24,830 bases of DNA from a virus. The position numbers and the translations under genes are program-made. The first letter of the stretch is position 1. Each line of letters begins with the position of its first letter. This document shows positions 2,250 to 24,830 of the stretch, one piece after another. The DNA lies in IMG/VR virus record IMGVR_UViG_3300008113_000350, positions 1 to 24,830 of that record, one strand, 5' to 3'. The notes beneath the pieces were generated by a model. The model was not told the origin of the DNA. It was given only the letters and a program-made list of their open reading frames with translations, and did not search any database.

Positions 2250-3398
2250 TCAAACCTTGAACCACGAGAGATATTGAGCAACTTTTTTAGTAACACTAGC
2301 CCAATCTCCACGACGGGGTTGCCTAAACAGTCGCACAGTTGAATACCAGGGACTCGAATCCCGATCAGTTAGCCAACGCCAGTCTGTGGCATAAGCATTC
2401 AGCATGATCCAGGTAGGTCTGCCCATGGCACCGGCCAAATGACTCACAGCAGTGTCCACACCCACAACCACATCCAGGTGCTGCATCAGGGCAGCAGTGT
2501 CAGCAAAACTGTGAACACTACCGGGATATCGTGTCACACCCAACTGGTCCAACTCAGCTTCTTGTTCGGGACTAGCATCTACTTGTAGGTTAATCCACTC
2601 GTAGTCGGGACATGCTCGAATCAATTCCAGCATCGCATCAAACGGCACAGCCTTGTGTTGATTTAGCCAAGAGTCTGGACGACCACTCCACCCAAATCCC
2701 ACCCGCATGCGAGTTTTTGGACCCAGTCGTTGGTGCCAAGCTCGCACACGTTCAGGGTCAGCGTTTAGATAACTTTGCACTCGAGGCAAGGTATCCAGTG
2801 TGATGCCCAGGATACCTGGCAAGCTCATGATGGGAACCCAGTAGTCAAACTCTCCCATGTCCGCACCGTAACCGGCCACTTGCGATATGATACCGCCTAT
2901 GCTCAGTAACGGAATCAAGCCGTCTGTGACCTGCAGTTTGATCTGAGCACCACGTTGATGCAGATTCCACAAAAATCTCACAAACTGGATGTTGTCCCCG
3001 TGCCCTTGCTCACCCACTACCAAGATAGTTTTACCATTTATGTCCTCACCTGACCAGCGAGGTTGTGCAAATTTAGGCTCAGTTCCAGCCAAGTGTTCGT
3101 AGTTCCAACGTGCTTCGTAAGCAGGCCAACCACGAGCATAGTCGCCCATCAGCAAGTATGCTATGGCCAGGTTAAAATGTGCGGTAATATTTCGTGGATC
3201 CAACACAGCCGCATGCTGCAAAAACGGCACTGCCCGCCCTGGGTGTCCCAGTTCTCGCATGACATTGCCGTAGTTGTTGAATGCTGCAGCATTGTCTGGA
3301 TCTGCCACAAATGCCTGTGCATAGCAGGCCAAGGCCTGTTCAGGTTCTTGCTGGGCTCTGAGTTGGTTGCCTTGCTCTATTAGGTCGTTGGAATTCAT
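2250..3398 (-). CDS. TPR-repeat glycosyltransferase (GT9/heptosyltransferase-like)
   Basis: The protein has 382 residues from the ATG at 3398. The frame extends about 20 codons further upstream, but only to a TTG. Residues 1-110 hold tetratricopeptide-type repeats (QALACYAQAFVADPDNAAAF, then a FNLAIAYL segment). The rest resembles the C-terminal catalytic domain of TPR-linked GT9-like glycosyltransferases: VGEQGHGDNIQFVRFL, a GWSGRP motif, and DVVVGVDTAVSHLAGAMG followed by PTWIML and DWRWL. Such enzymes transfer a sugar from a nucleotide donor; acceptor and sugar are unknown. It is the only minus-strand gene in the left part, set between plus-strand fibre genes. Possible roles are fibre or capsid glycosylation or host surface change. 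No Shine-Dalgarno sequence is evident. Confidence 0.88.
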   Translation of the reverse strand: MNSNDLIEQGNQLRAQQEPEQALACYAQAFVADPDNAAAFNNYGNVMRELGHPGRAVPFLQHAAVLDPRNITAHFNLAIAYLLMGDYARGWPAYEARWNYEHLAGTEPKFAQPRWSGEDINGKTILVVGEQGHGDNIQFVRFLWNLHQRGAQIKLQVTDGLIPLLSIGGIISQVAGYGADMGEFDYWVPIMSLPGILGITLDTLPRVQSYLNADPERVRAWHQRLGPKTRMRVGFGWSGRPDSWLNQHKAVPFDAMLELIRACPDYEWINLQVDASPEQEAELDQLGVTRYPGSVHSFADTAALMQHLDVVVGVDTAVSHLAGAMGRPTWIMLNAYATDWRWLTDRDSSPWYSTVRLFRQPRRGDWASVTKKVAQYLSWFKV

Positions 3399-3438
3399 CA
3401 CATATTTACTGGTGCGTTCACACGATATCCAGATTTCT

Positions 3439-3447
3439 GCTAAATAC
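3439..3447 (+). promoter_or_regulatory. Late promoter, GCTAAATAC
   Basis: The octamer GCTAAATA plus C is identical to the minus-strand site at 22939-22947 and, over eight bases, to the site at 24733. It lies 90 bases upstream of the 3538 gene. The leader holds short stem-loops, for example CGGG/CCCG at 3496-3510, before a strong ribosome-binding site. It overlaps no coding sequence if the glycosyltransferase starts at 3398. Confidence 0.7.
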
Positions 3448-3537
3448 TGGGTCCGCAATACGGCGGCTTATGCTGAGCTTAACACCCACAGCGTACGGGC
3501 TAGAACCCCGATCGGACTTCTTTAAGGAGAAAACAAA

Positions 3538-4239
3538 ATGGGTCGTCCTCTAAAAATTAAAAAATCTACCACCGGTGATATCGGTTTCAACGCAATTGAC
3601 ACACTGACCAATCCGGTCTATCCCTCAGATCCAACTACATTTGGTGGCACAGAGTATCTGGGCGTGGTGGGCGGCGCCAACGCCAGCGTGGCTACCACAG
3701 CTTATCCAGTGGTCAAGTGCCGTGCTTTCATCACCGGTACAGGTGCCGAAGATGATGCCTACATCATCACACAAAAAGGTTCTACCAAATATCAGGTGGC
3801 CACTGTGACTGCAGTCAACGACGAAAGCATGGTTGTGGGCCAGGCCTATCGTATTCTCACAGTGGGCGACACCAACTGGGCAGCAGTGGGCGGCAGCGTA
3901 AGTGCTGCTGTGGGTGATGTATTTACTGCCACTGGCGCAGGTGCAGGCACAGGCACAGTGCAAGACGTGGGCACATGCGTGTTGGCCAACGAAGCTGACA
4001 GCTCATTAACCGAAGGCAACATGAACATCACATTCAGCACAGGTGACAGCACTGCGCAGTTGATCAGCCGACTCACCAACCGTTTTGCTTTGGACTACAG
4101 TGATCCGCCAGTGCGTTACGCCGTGAACTTCTTCAGTGACGAAGGTTACGAAGTCAAATCGGGCACCACAGGTGCAGTCAACGCCAGCGGTCAACAAAAC
4201 CGTGTGGATTTGGCCATCGTAGAAAACTACACTTCTTGA
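3538..4239 (+). CDS. Phage virion structural protein
   Basis: The protein has 233 residues. The start is well defined: AAGGAG at 3524-3529 lies eight bases before the ATG, the best ribosome-binding site in the window. Residues about 100-142 form a module (GQAYRILTVGDTNWAAVGG, then VGDVFTATGAGAGTGTV) that recurs inside many unrelated phage structural proteins. The C-terminal part (NRFALDYSDPPVRYAVNFFS) is beta-rich and resembles virion proteins of T4-like aquatic phages. The exact position in the particle cannot be told. It has its own late promoter and terminator, so it is probably made in quantity as a one-gene late unit. Confidence 0.7.
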   Translation: MGRPLKIKKSTTGDIGFNAIDTLTNPVYPSDPTTFGGTEYLGVVGGANASVATTAYPVVKCRAFITGTGAEDDAYIITQKGSTKYQVATVTAVNDESMVVGQAYRILTVGDTNWAAVGGSVSAAVGDVFTATGAGAGTGTVQDVGTCVLANEADSSLTEGNMNITFSTGDSTAQLISRLTNRFALDYSDPPVRYAVNFFSDEGYEVKSGTTGAVNASGQQNRVDLAIVENYTS

Positions 4240-4288: not shown

Positions 4289-4876
4289 ATGACCGTAGCA
4301 TTTGTACTGGGAAATGGGCAAAGCCGTGACGCTTTGGATTTAACACAGTTGATCAAACTGGCGCCTGTGTATGGCTGCAACGCCCTGTTTAGAGAGTTTG
4401 AGCCATCTGTGCTGGTCAGCACAGATGCACCCATCAGCCGGGCCATACAAGAATCAGGCTACAGCAAAAAAAACGTGCACTACACCAGAAAACCCCTGCC
4501 AGACCTGGGTGCTCAACGTATACCACAACAGTATTATGGATTCAGTTCAGGACCTGCAGCAGTGGGCATTGCTGCTGTGGATCGCTGCAGAAAGATATAC
4601 CTGATAGGATTTGATCTAGGCCCGACTCGCACAGGGCACTTCAACAACATCTACGCAGACTCAGAATTCTACAAAAAATCATCGGCCACCCCCACTTTTA
4701 CCGGCAACTGGGTGCGTCAATTGGTCACTGTTGCCCGAGATTTCCCACAAGCACAATTTGTACGAGTTAAAGGATCGACCACAGCTGATATCCCAGAACT
4801 GGTCAATCTACCAAACTTTGCTCACATGGACATGGTAGACTTTATTGACCGCATAAATAACACAAAGGATCTCTAA
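4289..4876 (+). CDS. GNGxSR Rossmann-like protein (sialyltransferase/MptE-like fold, uncertain)
   Basis: The protein has 195 residues, with GGGAGG eight bases before the ATG. It begins with a beta strand and glycine turn, VAFVLGNGQSRD, followed by VYGCNALF. This pair of motifs recalls the nucleotide-binding start of Cst-I-type (GT42) sialyltransferases and of DUF115/MptE-like proteins, which open with GNGPS followed by a CN motif. Later features are a SSGPAAVGIAAV helix start, IYLIGFDLG and a TGNW segment. Small proteins of this type occur in aquatic phages. A sugar-nucleotide or pterin-related transferase activity is possible but unproven, because no catalytic set can be checked here. Its last codons contain the CATAAATA motif serving the following fibre gene, and its stop codon abuts that gene's ATG. 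Confidence 0.6.
   Translation: MTVAFVLGNGQSRDALDLTQLIKLAPVYGCNALFREFEPSVLVSTDAPISRAIQESGYSKKNVHYTRKPLPDLGAQRIPQQYYGFSSGPAAVGIAAVDRCRKIYLIGFDLGPTRTGHFNNIYADSEFYKKSSATPTFTGNWVRQLVTVARDFPQAQFVRVKGSTTADIPELVNLPNFAHMDMVDFIDRINNTKDL
4852..4859 (+). promoter_or_regulatory. Late promoter candidate, CATAAATA
   Basis: The octamer lies inside the last codons of the 4289 gene, 17 bases before the ATG at 4877. Predicted initiation near 4865 leaves a short leader with AAGGA as ribosome-binding site. Confidence 0.55.
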
Positions 4877-19800: not shown

Positions 19801-20232
19801 CTACACAAGATCCTGCTCGACCAGCAGGATCTTTTTTTGCACAGCATCAATGTTCACTGTGTTCCACAGTCCAGGATGCATGGGTCGGGGAAATGTGCCT
19901 GCGTCAATCCAGGCATAACCCAGGTGCTCGTGATTGAGCCTGGGAGTGAATTCTGACTGAATCACACACACCCAGGTGTGATACTCAAACACACCGTCGG
20001 GTGCGGTGAATTTTTCTAGTGGTATCAGTCTCAAGTATGTTGGAAAACTACCCAGTTCTTCAATACATTCGCGTTCCATGCCGCCCAGTAGTGTTTCTGC
20101 ACCTTCTAGTTTGCCGCCAGGAAGCCCCCATGCACCTGGGTGCTTGGCGTCGTTGCGCAAGAGATAAAGATAGCGACGGGTGTCTAGGCTTCGAAACCAA
20201 ACACCCACTGCTTTTAGAGAACCAGTTTCCAT
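19801..20232 (-). CDS. Nudix hydrolase
   Basis: The protein has 143 residues from the ATG at 20232, chosen because GGAGG (20236-20240) lies just upstream; the frame is open further but without a better start. A complete Nudix box, Gx5Ex7REUxEExGU, is present at about residues 39-61 (GKLEGAETLLGGMERECIEE then LG), with the preceding GAWGLPGG typical of the family. Nudix enzymes hydrolyse nucleoside diphosphates linked to another group; substrates may be oxidised dNTPs, ADP-ribose, sugar nucleotides or capped RNA. The substrate here cannot be inferred. The start overlaps the last 19 bases of the gp15-like gene, so it is co-translated with late tail genes. Its last codons double as the terminator of the convergent plus-strand gene. 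Confidence 0.93.
   Translation of the reverse strand: METGSLKAVGVWFRSLDTRRYLYLLRNDAKHPGAWGLPGGKLEGAETLLGGMERECIEELGSFPTYLRLIPLEKFTAPDGVFEYHTWVCVIQSEFTPRLNHEHLGYAWIDAGTFPRPMHPGLWNTVNIDAVQKKILLVEQDLV
19808..19838 (+). terminator. Terminator of the plus-strand structural run, inside the convergent Nudix gene
   Basis: AGATCCTGCT (19808-19817) pairs perfectly with AGCAGGATCT (19823-19832) around a 5-base loop, followed by six more T. The whole hairpin lies in the last codons of the minus-strand Nudix gene. On the minus strand it is not followed by a T-run, so it acts in one direction only. Confidence 0.92.
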
Positions 20233-22938: not shown

Positions 22939-22947
22939 GTATTTAGC
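22939..22947 (-). promoter_or_regulatory. Late promoter of the neck operon, GCTAAATAC
   Basis: Read on the minus strand, GCTAAATAC is identical to the plus-strand site at 3439-3447. Only six bases separate it from the ATG at 22932, so the predicted transcript has a leader of about two bases. Confidence 0.7.
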
Positions 22948-22957
22948 GAATTCAAGT

Positions 22958-22986
22958 TTGACCAAAAATACGCCTTGTGCTATAAT
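22958..22986 (+). promoter_or_regulatory. Sigma70-type promoter, TTGACC-N17-TATAAT
   Basis: The -35 TTGACC and a perfect -10 TATAAT (22981-22986) are separated by exactly 17 bases. Five bases separate the -10 box from the ATG at 22992, so the transcript is predicted to be leaderless or almost so. Confidence 0.85.
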
Positions 22987-22991
22987 TAGGA

Positions 22992-23246
22992 ATGGATGAA
23001 TATCTACAGCGTATTGACAGCCTGAGTCGGCAGGCCCATAAGTTTCAAAGTTATGAGGCCCGTGAAGATCTGGACCGCATGATTGGTGCTGCTCGTGCAG
23101 TAGCACAAGACCTCAGCCGGGAACTGGTTGAATGCAAGCGCCTGCGCAAGATAACAGTACGGGCCCAAAGTTTTGAAGTCAAACTAACTGACCTTTTGGA
23201 CAATGTTGAGAAAATGTTAGTTTATGCCCAGTTGCGCTATCGTTGA
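22992..23246 (+). CDS. Small helical hypothetical protein (84 aa)
   Basis: Not recognised. The 84 residues are highly charged and almost free of Gly and Pro, with Leu, Arg and Glu spaced as in one or two long amphipathic helices (EDLDRMIGAARAVAQDLSRE, then LTDLLDNVEKMLVYAQLRYR), so a coiled coil or helical bundle is likely. It begins with ATG directly after a consensus sigma70 promoter, and its stop codon TGA overlaps the -35 box of the next promoter. Both suggest expression by unmodified host RNA polymerase, probably early in infection. Small early phage proteins of this kind often bind host targets, but nothing here identifies one. Confidence 0.75.
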   Translation: MDEYLQRIDSLSRQAHKFQSYEAREDLDRMIGAARAVAQDLSRELVECKRLRKITVRAQSFEVKLTDLLDNVEKMLVYAQLRYR

Positions 23247-23271
23247 CCAAAAAGGTTATGTGTGTTATAAT
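23243..23271 (+). promoter_or_regulatory. Second sigma70-type promoter, TTGACC-N17-TATAAT
   Basis: It repeats the upstream promoter's design: TTGACC (23243-23248), a 17-base spacer and TATAAT (23266-23271). The first eleven bases, TTGACCAAAAA, are identical to the promoter at 22958. Initiation near 23278 would serve the 23289 and 23597 genes. Confidence 0.85.
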
Positions 23272-23288: not shown

Positions 23289-23588
23289 ATGGGGTATGTG
23301 ATGAAAGCTGTGAGTTTTGTTGCAAAGTATTCTGGCACCAATCGATCACGGGCTGTGGTACCCTATGACAAAGTCAAAGCCACAGAAAAGTGGGTAGAGT
23401 ATGCCTTGGACATTGCGGACATGTCGCGAATCATAATGTCCGTAGATTTTGACACAAAATGGAAACTAGCGGCGGCTCTGGAAATAGCAGAACGCAAAAA
23501 AGCCTATATGTACAAACACAAAAACTTCAATCTCAATCGTGCTTTGACAATTTTTGATGCCGTCAAACATTTGCCCTCCACTAAGTAA
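23289..23588 (+). CDS. Hypothetical protein (99 aa), probably early
   Basis: Not recognised. From the ATG at 23289 it has 99 residues; an in-frame ATG at 23301 (starting MKAVSFVAKYSG) has GGGG six bases upstream and may be the true start, giving 95 residues. The sequence is basic and mostly helical, with many Lys and Ala (KWKLAAALEIAERKKAYMYK) and a C-terminal FDAVKHLPSTK. No signal peptide or membrane segment is seen. It lies 18 bases after a consensus sigma70 promoter. Its stop codon overlaps the Shine-Dalgarno sequence of the next gene, so the two are co-expressed. Confidence 0.78.
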   Translation: MGYVMKAVSFVAKYSGTNRSRAVVPYDKVKATEKWVEYALDIADMSRIIMSVDFDTKWKLAAALEIAERKKAYMYKHKNFNLNRALTIFDAVKHLPSTK

Positions 23589-23596
23589 GGACCAAT

Positions 23597-24730
23597 ATGA
23601 AAAACACCGCTCAAGTAAAACTGCTGAATCCCCGTAGCCCAGACACCAAGTTCATGGGCATGGAACCCGACTGGCACACGGCTCCAATGGCCGGGCGCAT
23701 CAGTTCCATGAGCAAGGCCTTTGCATGGTACAATTATTTTTACGGCAAAAAAGATGCTCGTGACATGATTGTGAGCTACCTGGAAGCACATGGACGCAAG
23801 GCTGATGTACGTACTCTGCGAGGTGTTCCAGACTCGGCTATTCGCTCAACCACTGCATGGTTGTGCCGCATGACTCAGGTGGGTCTGGAACTAAATGAGG
23901 CTGAGCAAGTGAAGCTGGACACAATGTTGGCAGAAATTCTGGCAGCAAAACAGCAGGCCCAGGCCGAAGCCACTGTGGAATCCGACGTGCCAAAGATCAC
24001 CATCCAAGATCGCCTACGTGAAAAGGTGTCGGAGTGTGCTGGCGAACTGGACGGCATGTTTGACGAGTTTGTGATCAATGGCGCCAAAATGTCAGCGGAC
24101 TACAAACCTGTGAGCTTGATTCGTAGCATGAACGTGGCACCACAGTTGATCTCAGTACTAAGCGACATCTGGAAGCGCAAACTGACTGAGTTTGAATTGG
24201 CTGTGGAAGGCAAAGATGCACACCTGGCTGAAGGCTATAGATTCCTCTCCAAGATCCAGTTGCGCAATGCTGTGAAGTTCTGTGAAACTGTGATCAACGA
24301 CTGCGGTGCATATGTGCAGATCAAGAAAGTGGAACGCAAGCCGCGACAGGTCAAAGCAGTGCCACCTGAGAAGAAAGCAGCCAAGTTCAAGATTTGTACA
24401 GAGTTTGTGGAACTCAAGCTGAAGAGCCTGCCAGCTGCAAGCCTAGTGGACAAGACCGAAGCCTGGTTGTATGACACCAAAAAGCGCAAGCTGATTCATG
24501 TTGTGGCCGACGAGTATGCCAAGGTGTTTACTGTGAAAAACAATGCCATCATTGGATTCGGCACAGCGGAAACCCAGCAGAAAACTGTGCGCAAGCCAGC
24601 CGAAACTATTAAAGCTATGCAGGCAGCAGGCAAGCCAGCTGCTCGTAAACTGTTCAAGGACATCAAGACCACAGAAACTGCATTTAACGGACGTGGTACT
24701 GAGAATTTGGTGATCCTCAAGAGCTGGTGA
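23597..24730 (+). CDS. Hypothetical protein (377 aa) conserved-looking, function unknown
   Basis: TAAGGA (23586-23591) lies five bases before the ATG and overlaps the upstream stop codon. Residues about 20-70 (RISSMSKAFAWYNYFYGKKD, then a DMIVSYLEAHG segment) have the look of a conserved helical core rich in Trp and Tyr, and I have the impression of similar unknown proteins in T4-like aquatic phages. A middle helical part (about 130-240) is followed by a Lys/Pro-rich linker (RKPRQVKAVPPEKKAAK). The C-terminal part (AWLYDTKKRKLIHVVADEYA) looks like a small beta-rich domain, followed by basic residues. The high Lys content and linker suggest nucleic-acid binding, but no catalytic motif is seen. 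It probably shares the early promoter at 23243. Confidence 0.85.
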   Translation: MKNTAQVKLLNPRSPDTKFMGMEPDWHTAPMAGRISSMSKAFAWYNYFYGKKDARDMIVSYLEAHGRKADVRTLRGVPDSAIRSTTAWLCRMTQVGLELNEAEQVKLDTMLAEILAAKQQAQAEATVESDVPKITIQDRLREKVSECAGELDGMFDEFVINGAKMSADYKPVSLIRSMNVAPQLISVLSDIWKRKLTEFELAVEGKDAHLAEGYRFLSKIQLRNAVKFCETVINDCGAYVQIKKVERKPRQVKAVPPEKKAAKFKICTEFVELKLKSLPAASLVDKTEAWLYDTKKRKLIHVVADEYAKVFTVKNNAIIGFGTAETQQKTVRKPAETIKAMQAAGKPAARKLFKDIKTTETAFNGRGTENLVILKSW

Positions 24731-24732
24731 CA

Positions 24733-24740
24733 GCTAAATA
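24733..24740 (+). promoter_or_regulatory. Late promoter, GCTAAATA
   Basis: The octamer is identical to those at 3439 and 22940-22947 (minus strand). It lies three bases after the upstream stop codon. Initiation near 24746 would fall inside the 5' arm of the hairpin that covers the next start codon. Confidence 0.7.
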
Positions 24741-24760
24741 TAGGGAACGGAGTTCCCTAT
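24740..24760 (+). promoter_or_regulatory. Hairpin sequestering the start codon and ribosome-binding site of the next gene
   Basis: ATAGGGAAC (24740-24748) pairs perfectly with GTTCCCTAT (24752-24760) around the 3-base loop GGA. The stem includes the A and T of the ATG at 24759, and the GGAG (24749-24752) that would be the Shine-Dalgarno sequence lies in the loop and first pair. No T-run follows, so it is not a terminator. Confidence 0.8.
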
Positions 24761-24830
24761 GAGCGAAAATACATTACCCCAACTCAAGCAAAACTTAATT
24801 GAATATGTCAAGCTTCAGTTGGGTGATCAG
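24759..24830 (+). CDS. Start of a late gene, possibly structural (3' end outside window)
   Basis: Only 24 residues are visible, beginning MSENTLPQLKQNLIEYVKLQ and continuing LGDQ. The ATG is supported by GGAG six bases upstream and by the late promoter and hairpin directly before it. The pattern of a short polar start followed by an EYVKLQLG helix recalls N-termini of neck or other virion proteins in T4-like phages, but this is too short for a firm call. The promoter class suggests late expression, in contrast to the probably early genes just upstream. Confidence 0.6.
   Translation, partial: MSENTLPQLKQNLIEYVKLQLGDQ

Follow-up and report, generated by a model that had tools for sequence, protein, structure and literature searches.

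For gene e of phage T4, which encodes lysozyme, it has been described that the long early RNA folds over the Shine-Dalgarno (SD) sequence and the AUG, and that the late RNA, whose promoter lies within the element, lacks the 5′ strand of this fold (PMC3014915). The design has been described for T4 e, soc, 49, I-TevI, I-TevII, I-TevIII and segB and for Aeh1 mobE (PMC3014915, PMC2988022); the original prediction for the present locus had invoked e, soc, 49 and I-TevI as precedents. Here we describe a candidate for a new and widely conserved case of this T4-type switch, well supported in silico, located on an essential-looking structural gene. A core neck protein would thereby join the accessory or mobile genes (lysozyme, soc, homing endonucleases) that use the T4 device. 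The phages concerned are giant freshwater jumbo phages, a large and mostly uncultured group, and no report of such a design in jumbo phages was found in the literature searched.

The DNA analyzed, henceforth referred to as the window, is the complete IMG/VR fragment IMGVR_UViG_3300008113_000350 (24,830 bases). Positions 24733 to 24761 read GCTAAATATAGGGAACGGAGTTCCCTATG and contain the predicted perfect 9-bp hairpin (24740-24760) at the start codon of the gene at 24759. Its 5′ arm ATAGGGAAC (24740-24748, + strand), delineated by sequence, folding and covariation, pairs with the 3′ arm GTTCCCTAT (24752-24760, + strand), which covariation supports as well, leaving a 3-nt loop, GGA (24749-24751). 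The SD-AUG spacer and the start codon are thereby closed, the 3′ arm covering the spacer and the AU of the AUG. The hairpin had also been proposed to close the SD sequence GGAG (24749-24752, + strand), which holds in part: the last G is paired, but GGA remains unpaired in the loop. Folding of the 76-nt hairpin region yields −16.8 kcal/mol (z = −2.6); for the predicted late RNA, starting at 24746, the value is −3.7 kcal/mol (z = −0.2).

The stem alone would not prove much, as the window contains four non-overlapping perfect 9-bp stems with loops of 3 to 8 nt and first-order Markov copies contain 0 to 4; it is placement and conservation that carry weight. The stem at 24740-24760 is the only one of the four that falls on a start codon. 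The three other perfect stems of at least 9 bp are found at 611-636, 4404-4427 and 19807-19833, and those at 611 (A/T-flanked) and 19807 (with a T tail) resemble intrinsic terminators.

From the sequences, the layout of the window is closest to that of T4 soc (TATAAATAATCATGTAATTTAAATAAAGGAGAATTACATG), in which the 5′ arm likewise begins just past the promoter, the loop contains the SD and the AUG falls within the 3′ arm, although soc has an AT-rich 9-bp stem and a longer loop. T4 e, with the layout AATACCTTC-[TATAAATACTTA]-GGAGGTATT, resembles the window in having a late promoter within the element and a late RNA devoid of the 5′ strand. Its promoter, however, is located in the loop and its SD in the 3′ arm, whereas in the window it is the SD that occupies the loop, the late box TAAATA being at the left edge; the layout of e recurs in the relatives L005, L269, L244, L198, L238 and L205. 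In T4 gene 49 the late box straddles the 5′ arm, as it does here, but this gene encodes a recombination endonuclease, the stem is a different one and the box is 29 nt from the AUG. The leaders of Aeh1 mobE and of T4 I-TevI, I-TevII, I-TevIII and segB follow the same timing logic (PMC2988022). They differ in that the homing endonuclease genes are mobile, while the gene considered here belongs to the core of the virion, and in mobE and I-TevII the promoter is moreover at or in the loop.

The gene controlled by the hairpin (24759-24830, + strand) runs off the contig after 24 codons. In an identical contig (L003) the whole gene is present (3073-3834) and encodes a protein of 253 aa matching phrog_211, head-tail adaptor Ad2 (E = 2e-27); from the nomenclature, we take Ad2 to be T4 gp13-like, making this a presumptive late neck gene. 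A blastn search of the region against annotated phages gave no match, and relatives were obtained from protein searches. By comparison, the cultured relatives are phages of the Atu_ph07, XaC1, PA5oct and RaK2 types, so that the 'distant T4-like phage' of the original prediction is rather akin to jumbo phages of the PA5oct/RaK2/Atu_ph07 type than simply T4-like. In PA5oct, a homologue of the early gene described below is immediately followed by the gene of a neck protein that mass spectrometry has detected; TAAATA is present at the same early/neck junction of this cultured phage, with only a weak hairpin. Sinorhizobium phage phiM12, Caulobacter phage Cr30 and Ochrobactrum phage OC carry a homologue of the early gene without the neck gene beside it.

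Upstream of the hairpin, two predicted early sigma70 promoters, both TTGACC-17-TATAAT with 11/12 matches (22958-22986 and 23243-23271, + strand), head a run of three ORFs on the same strand. These are putative early genes encoding 84 aa (22992-23246) and 99 aa (23289-23588), neither with a family match, and, directly upstream of the neck gene, a 377-aa protein of phrog_11903 (23597-24730; E = 3e-54; unknown function). Both promoters had been predicted to read toward the hairpin, and such promoters are retained among relatives: 128/133 loci have a sigma70 promoter with at least 10/12 matches in the 1.5 kb before the 377-aa gene (a longer stretch being scanned for a few partial matches). The corresponding counts are 20/133 for the reverse strand and 30/136 for the body of the gene and the sequence beyond it. 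No terminator-like sites were found on the + strand between these promoters (22958, 23243) and the hairpin. Hence the promoter scan, the terminator scan and the 128/133 relatives place the neck gene downstream of early promoters from which read-through is possible, as in a T4-type switch.

The late promoter was originally described as the octamer GCTAAATA (24733-24740) at the left edge of the hairpin. A late box indeed ends there, but the octamer is too narrow a definition: the unit conserved across relatives is TAAATA (24735-24740, + strand), which is invariant in 48 aligned relatives while the flanking bases are free. GCTAAATA itself occurs three times in the window, with 0.46 expected. Nor does it differ from the octamers already known, as had been supposed, since it fits the published late consensus of Aeh1, in which a/gC replaces TA at −13/−12, giving a/gCTAAATA (PMC2988020). 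With T4 late-promoter numbering (octamer from −13 to −6), transcription is predicted to start at 24746 (+ strand). Sequence and numbering together therefore place the promoter such that the late RNA would lack six (24740-24745) of the nine bases of the 5′ arm.

The distribution of TAAATA in larger genomes identifies it as the predicted late promoter box. In G001, a relative of 212 kb that is the contig of locus L058, TAAATA occurs 109 times, 45 of them in intergenic DNA, which makes up 4% of the sequence, and 62 of the 109 (57%) precede an ATG ORF within 45 nt, compared with 16-29% for other AT-rich hexamers. In PA5oct, 20/46 structural genes have the box in the 50 nt before them, versus 4/104 genes of a left-end block that consists of small non-structural genes and was taken as early. 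A TATAAATA-like box is thus present about one turn upstream of the predicted start, recognizable by a TAAATA core that recurs at gene starts and upstream of structural genes. Genes for gp55-like late sigma factors are present in the relatives G002 and G006 and in PA5oct; a search of the 212-kb fragment G001 found none. A search for a gp45-like clamp (phrog_223) gave no match in the relatives, nor in any control genome.

To compare the two RNAs, the energy needed to open the start was used, as the mean unpaired probability of SD and AUG failed to separate them, GGA being in the loop. The computed opening cost in the window is 12.2 kcal/mol on read-through RNA (100-nt context) versus 4.5 kcal/mol on late RNA, and 12.3-13.7 kcal/mol in RNA folded from the sigma70 start regions. 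The predicted contrast between a hidden start on read-through RNA and an open one on late RNA is therefore reproduced by the model, in line with the read-through and late values of the known switches T4 e (15.8 and 2.0), 49 (16.5 and 3.3), I-TevII (13.6 and 0.4) and mobE (14.1 and 4.8). For T4 soc (7.8 and 7.3), the two RNAs are not separated by this measure. Computation thus places the AUG and the last base of the SD in a helix on the read-through RNA, as in a T4-type switch.

The same holds for relatives. Among 67 distinct leaders in which the neck gene is adjacent to the early gene, the median opening cost is 12.7 kcal/mol on read-through and 4.1 kcal/mol on late RNA. The difference amounts to at least 5 kcal/mol in 59/67 of these leaders but in only 18/41 of those separated from the early gene by other genes (Fisher p = 2e-6, relatedness ignored). 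For the 25 genes of G001 preceded by TAAATA and an SD, the neck gene included, the medians are 5.0 versus 2.9, and the neck gene ranks first in difference.

Homologous gene starts were gathered by three scans, resulting in about 240 related loci. Across these, TAAATA and GGAG hardly vary, nor does the spacing of 8-9 nt, and the stem covaries. Its sequence takes forms such as GGGAAC/GTTCCC, GGGTAC/GTACCC, GGGGC/GCCCC, AAGGAC/GTCCTT and CTGGGC/GCCCAG, with 29 different arm pairs in all. Contiguous pairs were counted with the arms anchored on GGAG, since a fixed-column alignment mis-registers stems with loops of 4-5 nt; 5.15 were observed, versus 3.65 ± 0.16 when arms were dealt among sequences (maximum 4.21 of 2000). 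A MAFFT alignment contains 38 cells with two-sided change versus 15.8 after shuffling (0/500), slid structures on this alignment have lower pairing and covariation scores, and several pairs show three standard pair types. These controls leave relatedness in, the relatives being non-independent samples and the statistics lacking a tree correction. Compensatory changes, by which the hairpin had been proposed to be judged, are thus found, with pairing kept while bases vary. Loss of the stem with retention of the gene start, named beforehand as the opposing outcome, occurs in a minority of loci, mostly where genes separate the early from the late gene. A few adjacent relatives (L139, L163) are without a hairpin, and about half of the separated loci keep one in the absence of an adjacent early gene. 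Beyond what single T4 genes offer, the many relatives add covariation, unrelated replacement hairpins and partial loss where no early gene is adjacent.

Such a replacement is found in L005, of which the upstream protein is 91% identical to that of the window. This relative has an unrelated 10-bp hairpin, GAATCCTTGC-TAAATACA-GCAAGGATTC, whose loop contains TAAATA and whose 3′ arm contains the SD; an exact search for it returned only L005 and two coding-like matches in other phages. L269, L244, L198, L238 and L205 have the same promoter-in-loop design with other stems. In these relatives, an RNA beginning 6 nt after TAAATA would start at the SD or no more than one base away from it and would contain no 5′ arm. 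Because the two unrelated hairpins share only their presence on read-through RNA and their absence on late RNA, the function of the hairpin is most likely located on the read-through RNA.

Taken together, we interpret the site as a T4-type translational gate that would keep a late virion gene from being translated on early read-through RNA, a reading to which we assign a probability of about 0.85. It builds on sequence, conservation, covariation, modelled folding and enrichment of the box; its predicted components are where transcription starts, which sigma factor is used, how large the translational block is and when it operates. Early sigma70 transcripts from 22958 and 23243 would traverse the 377-aa gene and continue into the neck gene, and on this RNA nine bases, beginning with the last A of TAAATA, would pair with the SD-AUG spacer and the AUG and exclude ribosomes. 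Late in infection, a gp55-type sigma factor would use TAAATA to start RNA near 24746, and with most of the 5′ arm missing, AACGGAG...AUG would be open and translated.

The main rival to this gate is translational coupling, because TAAATA supplies, with its TAA, the stop codon that ends the early gene in 23/38 distinct adjacent leaders, L024, L049 and L058 among them. A ribosome terminating there would cover the 5′ arm, so that ribosomes finishing the early gene could melt it and reinitiate on the neck gene, read-through RNA being used rather than silenced. In the window, however, the stop codon (24728-24730) is 10 nt before the hairpin, and the footprint of a ribosome stopped at that distance barely reaches it; in the promoter-in-loop relatives L269 and L005 the distance between stop and hairpin differs again. 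Moreover, were early RNA the template, there would be no point in having a late promoter inside the element, and the neck gene encodes a part of the virion. We therefore consider coupling unlikely. As an observation in its own right, the stop codon and the late box share three bases in those 23 leaders.

Two further explanations, a DNA operator and a role on the late RNA, appear less probable still, and about equally so. The palindrome, a perfect inverted repeat adjoining the promoter box, could be an operator overlapping the late promoter and bound by a repressor, much as I-TevI binds to DNA and so represses its own late promoter (PMC2988022). The stem sequence is not conserved, though, as the 29 arm pairs illustrate, and in six relatives the palindrome is centered on TAAATA instead of the SD; it is the pairing against SD and AUG that is maintained, not a DNA word. 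Alternatively, transcription could start upstream and the hairpin act on the late RNA itself, through stability, protein binding or enhanced initiation, since hairpins near an SD can aid initiation, e.g. in T4 gene 25 (PMC3014915). This is at odds with a box that ends at the base of the stem, from which a start 6 nt on removes most of the 5′ arm, with the promoter-in-loop design, in which the entire 5′ arm precedes the predicted start, and with the variable loop and stem sequences. A chance palindrome, conceivable given the 0-4 nine-bp stems per simulated window, is refuted by conservation, that is by covariation and by recurrence across more than 100 distinct leaders.

In L011, L031, L037, L053 and others, about 40 distinct leaders, one or two genes (0.9-2 kb) are inserted at the early/late junction, and roughly half of these leaders have a weaker hairpin or none. 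The first inserted gene is presumably radical-SAM-like, by our own reading of a CxxxCxxC motif. At these separated loci, TAAATA stands at the stop of the early gene in 23/28, and in most of these 23 the AUG of the inserted gene follows TAAATA by about 4-8 nt. We infer that the late mRNA of such a gene would be leaderless and that inside early RNA, without an SD, the gene would be silent. In G001, 26/109 copies of TAAATA have an ATG ORF 3-8 nt away, versus 0.6-7% for control hexamers, which suggests that leaderless late mRNAs may be common in this phage group. The same spacing of 3-8 nt before an ATG ORF is also seen at window positions 22945 (− strand) and 801 (+ strand) and in L031 and L037.

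It is conceivable, at slightly less than even odds, that this lineage guards the early/late boundary at the RNA level by interchangeable devices, namely two unrelated kinds of hairpin, one looping out the SD and the other the promoter, or a leaderless late start at an inserted gene. If true, late genes located behind early operons would follow a rule holding throughout the lineage, and the devices would be more than a curiosity of single T4 genes. The combination of TAAATA and a closed start could also serve as a sequence signature by which to predict, in metagenomic phages, where early genes give way to late ones.

Weaker start-closing stems adjoining TAAATA are present at other late genes of G001, at 163201 (− strand, TAAATACTGACAATCGGAGCGGTCAATG) and 114892 (− strand, TAAATATGCAACAGGAGAAGCCACTATG). 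Likewise, at positions 103682-103740 of PA5oct (MK797984), TAAATA stands immediately before a long, AT-rich hairpin in which the AUG of EST35_0170 (103722) is contained; the product of this gene is a structural protein detected by mass spectrometry, making it a second such case, in a cultured phage.
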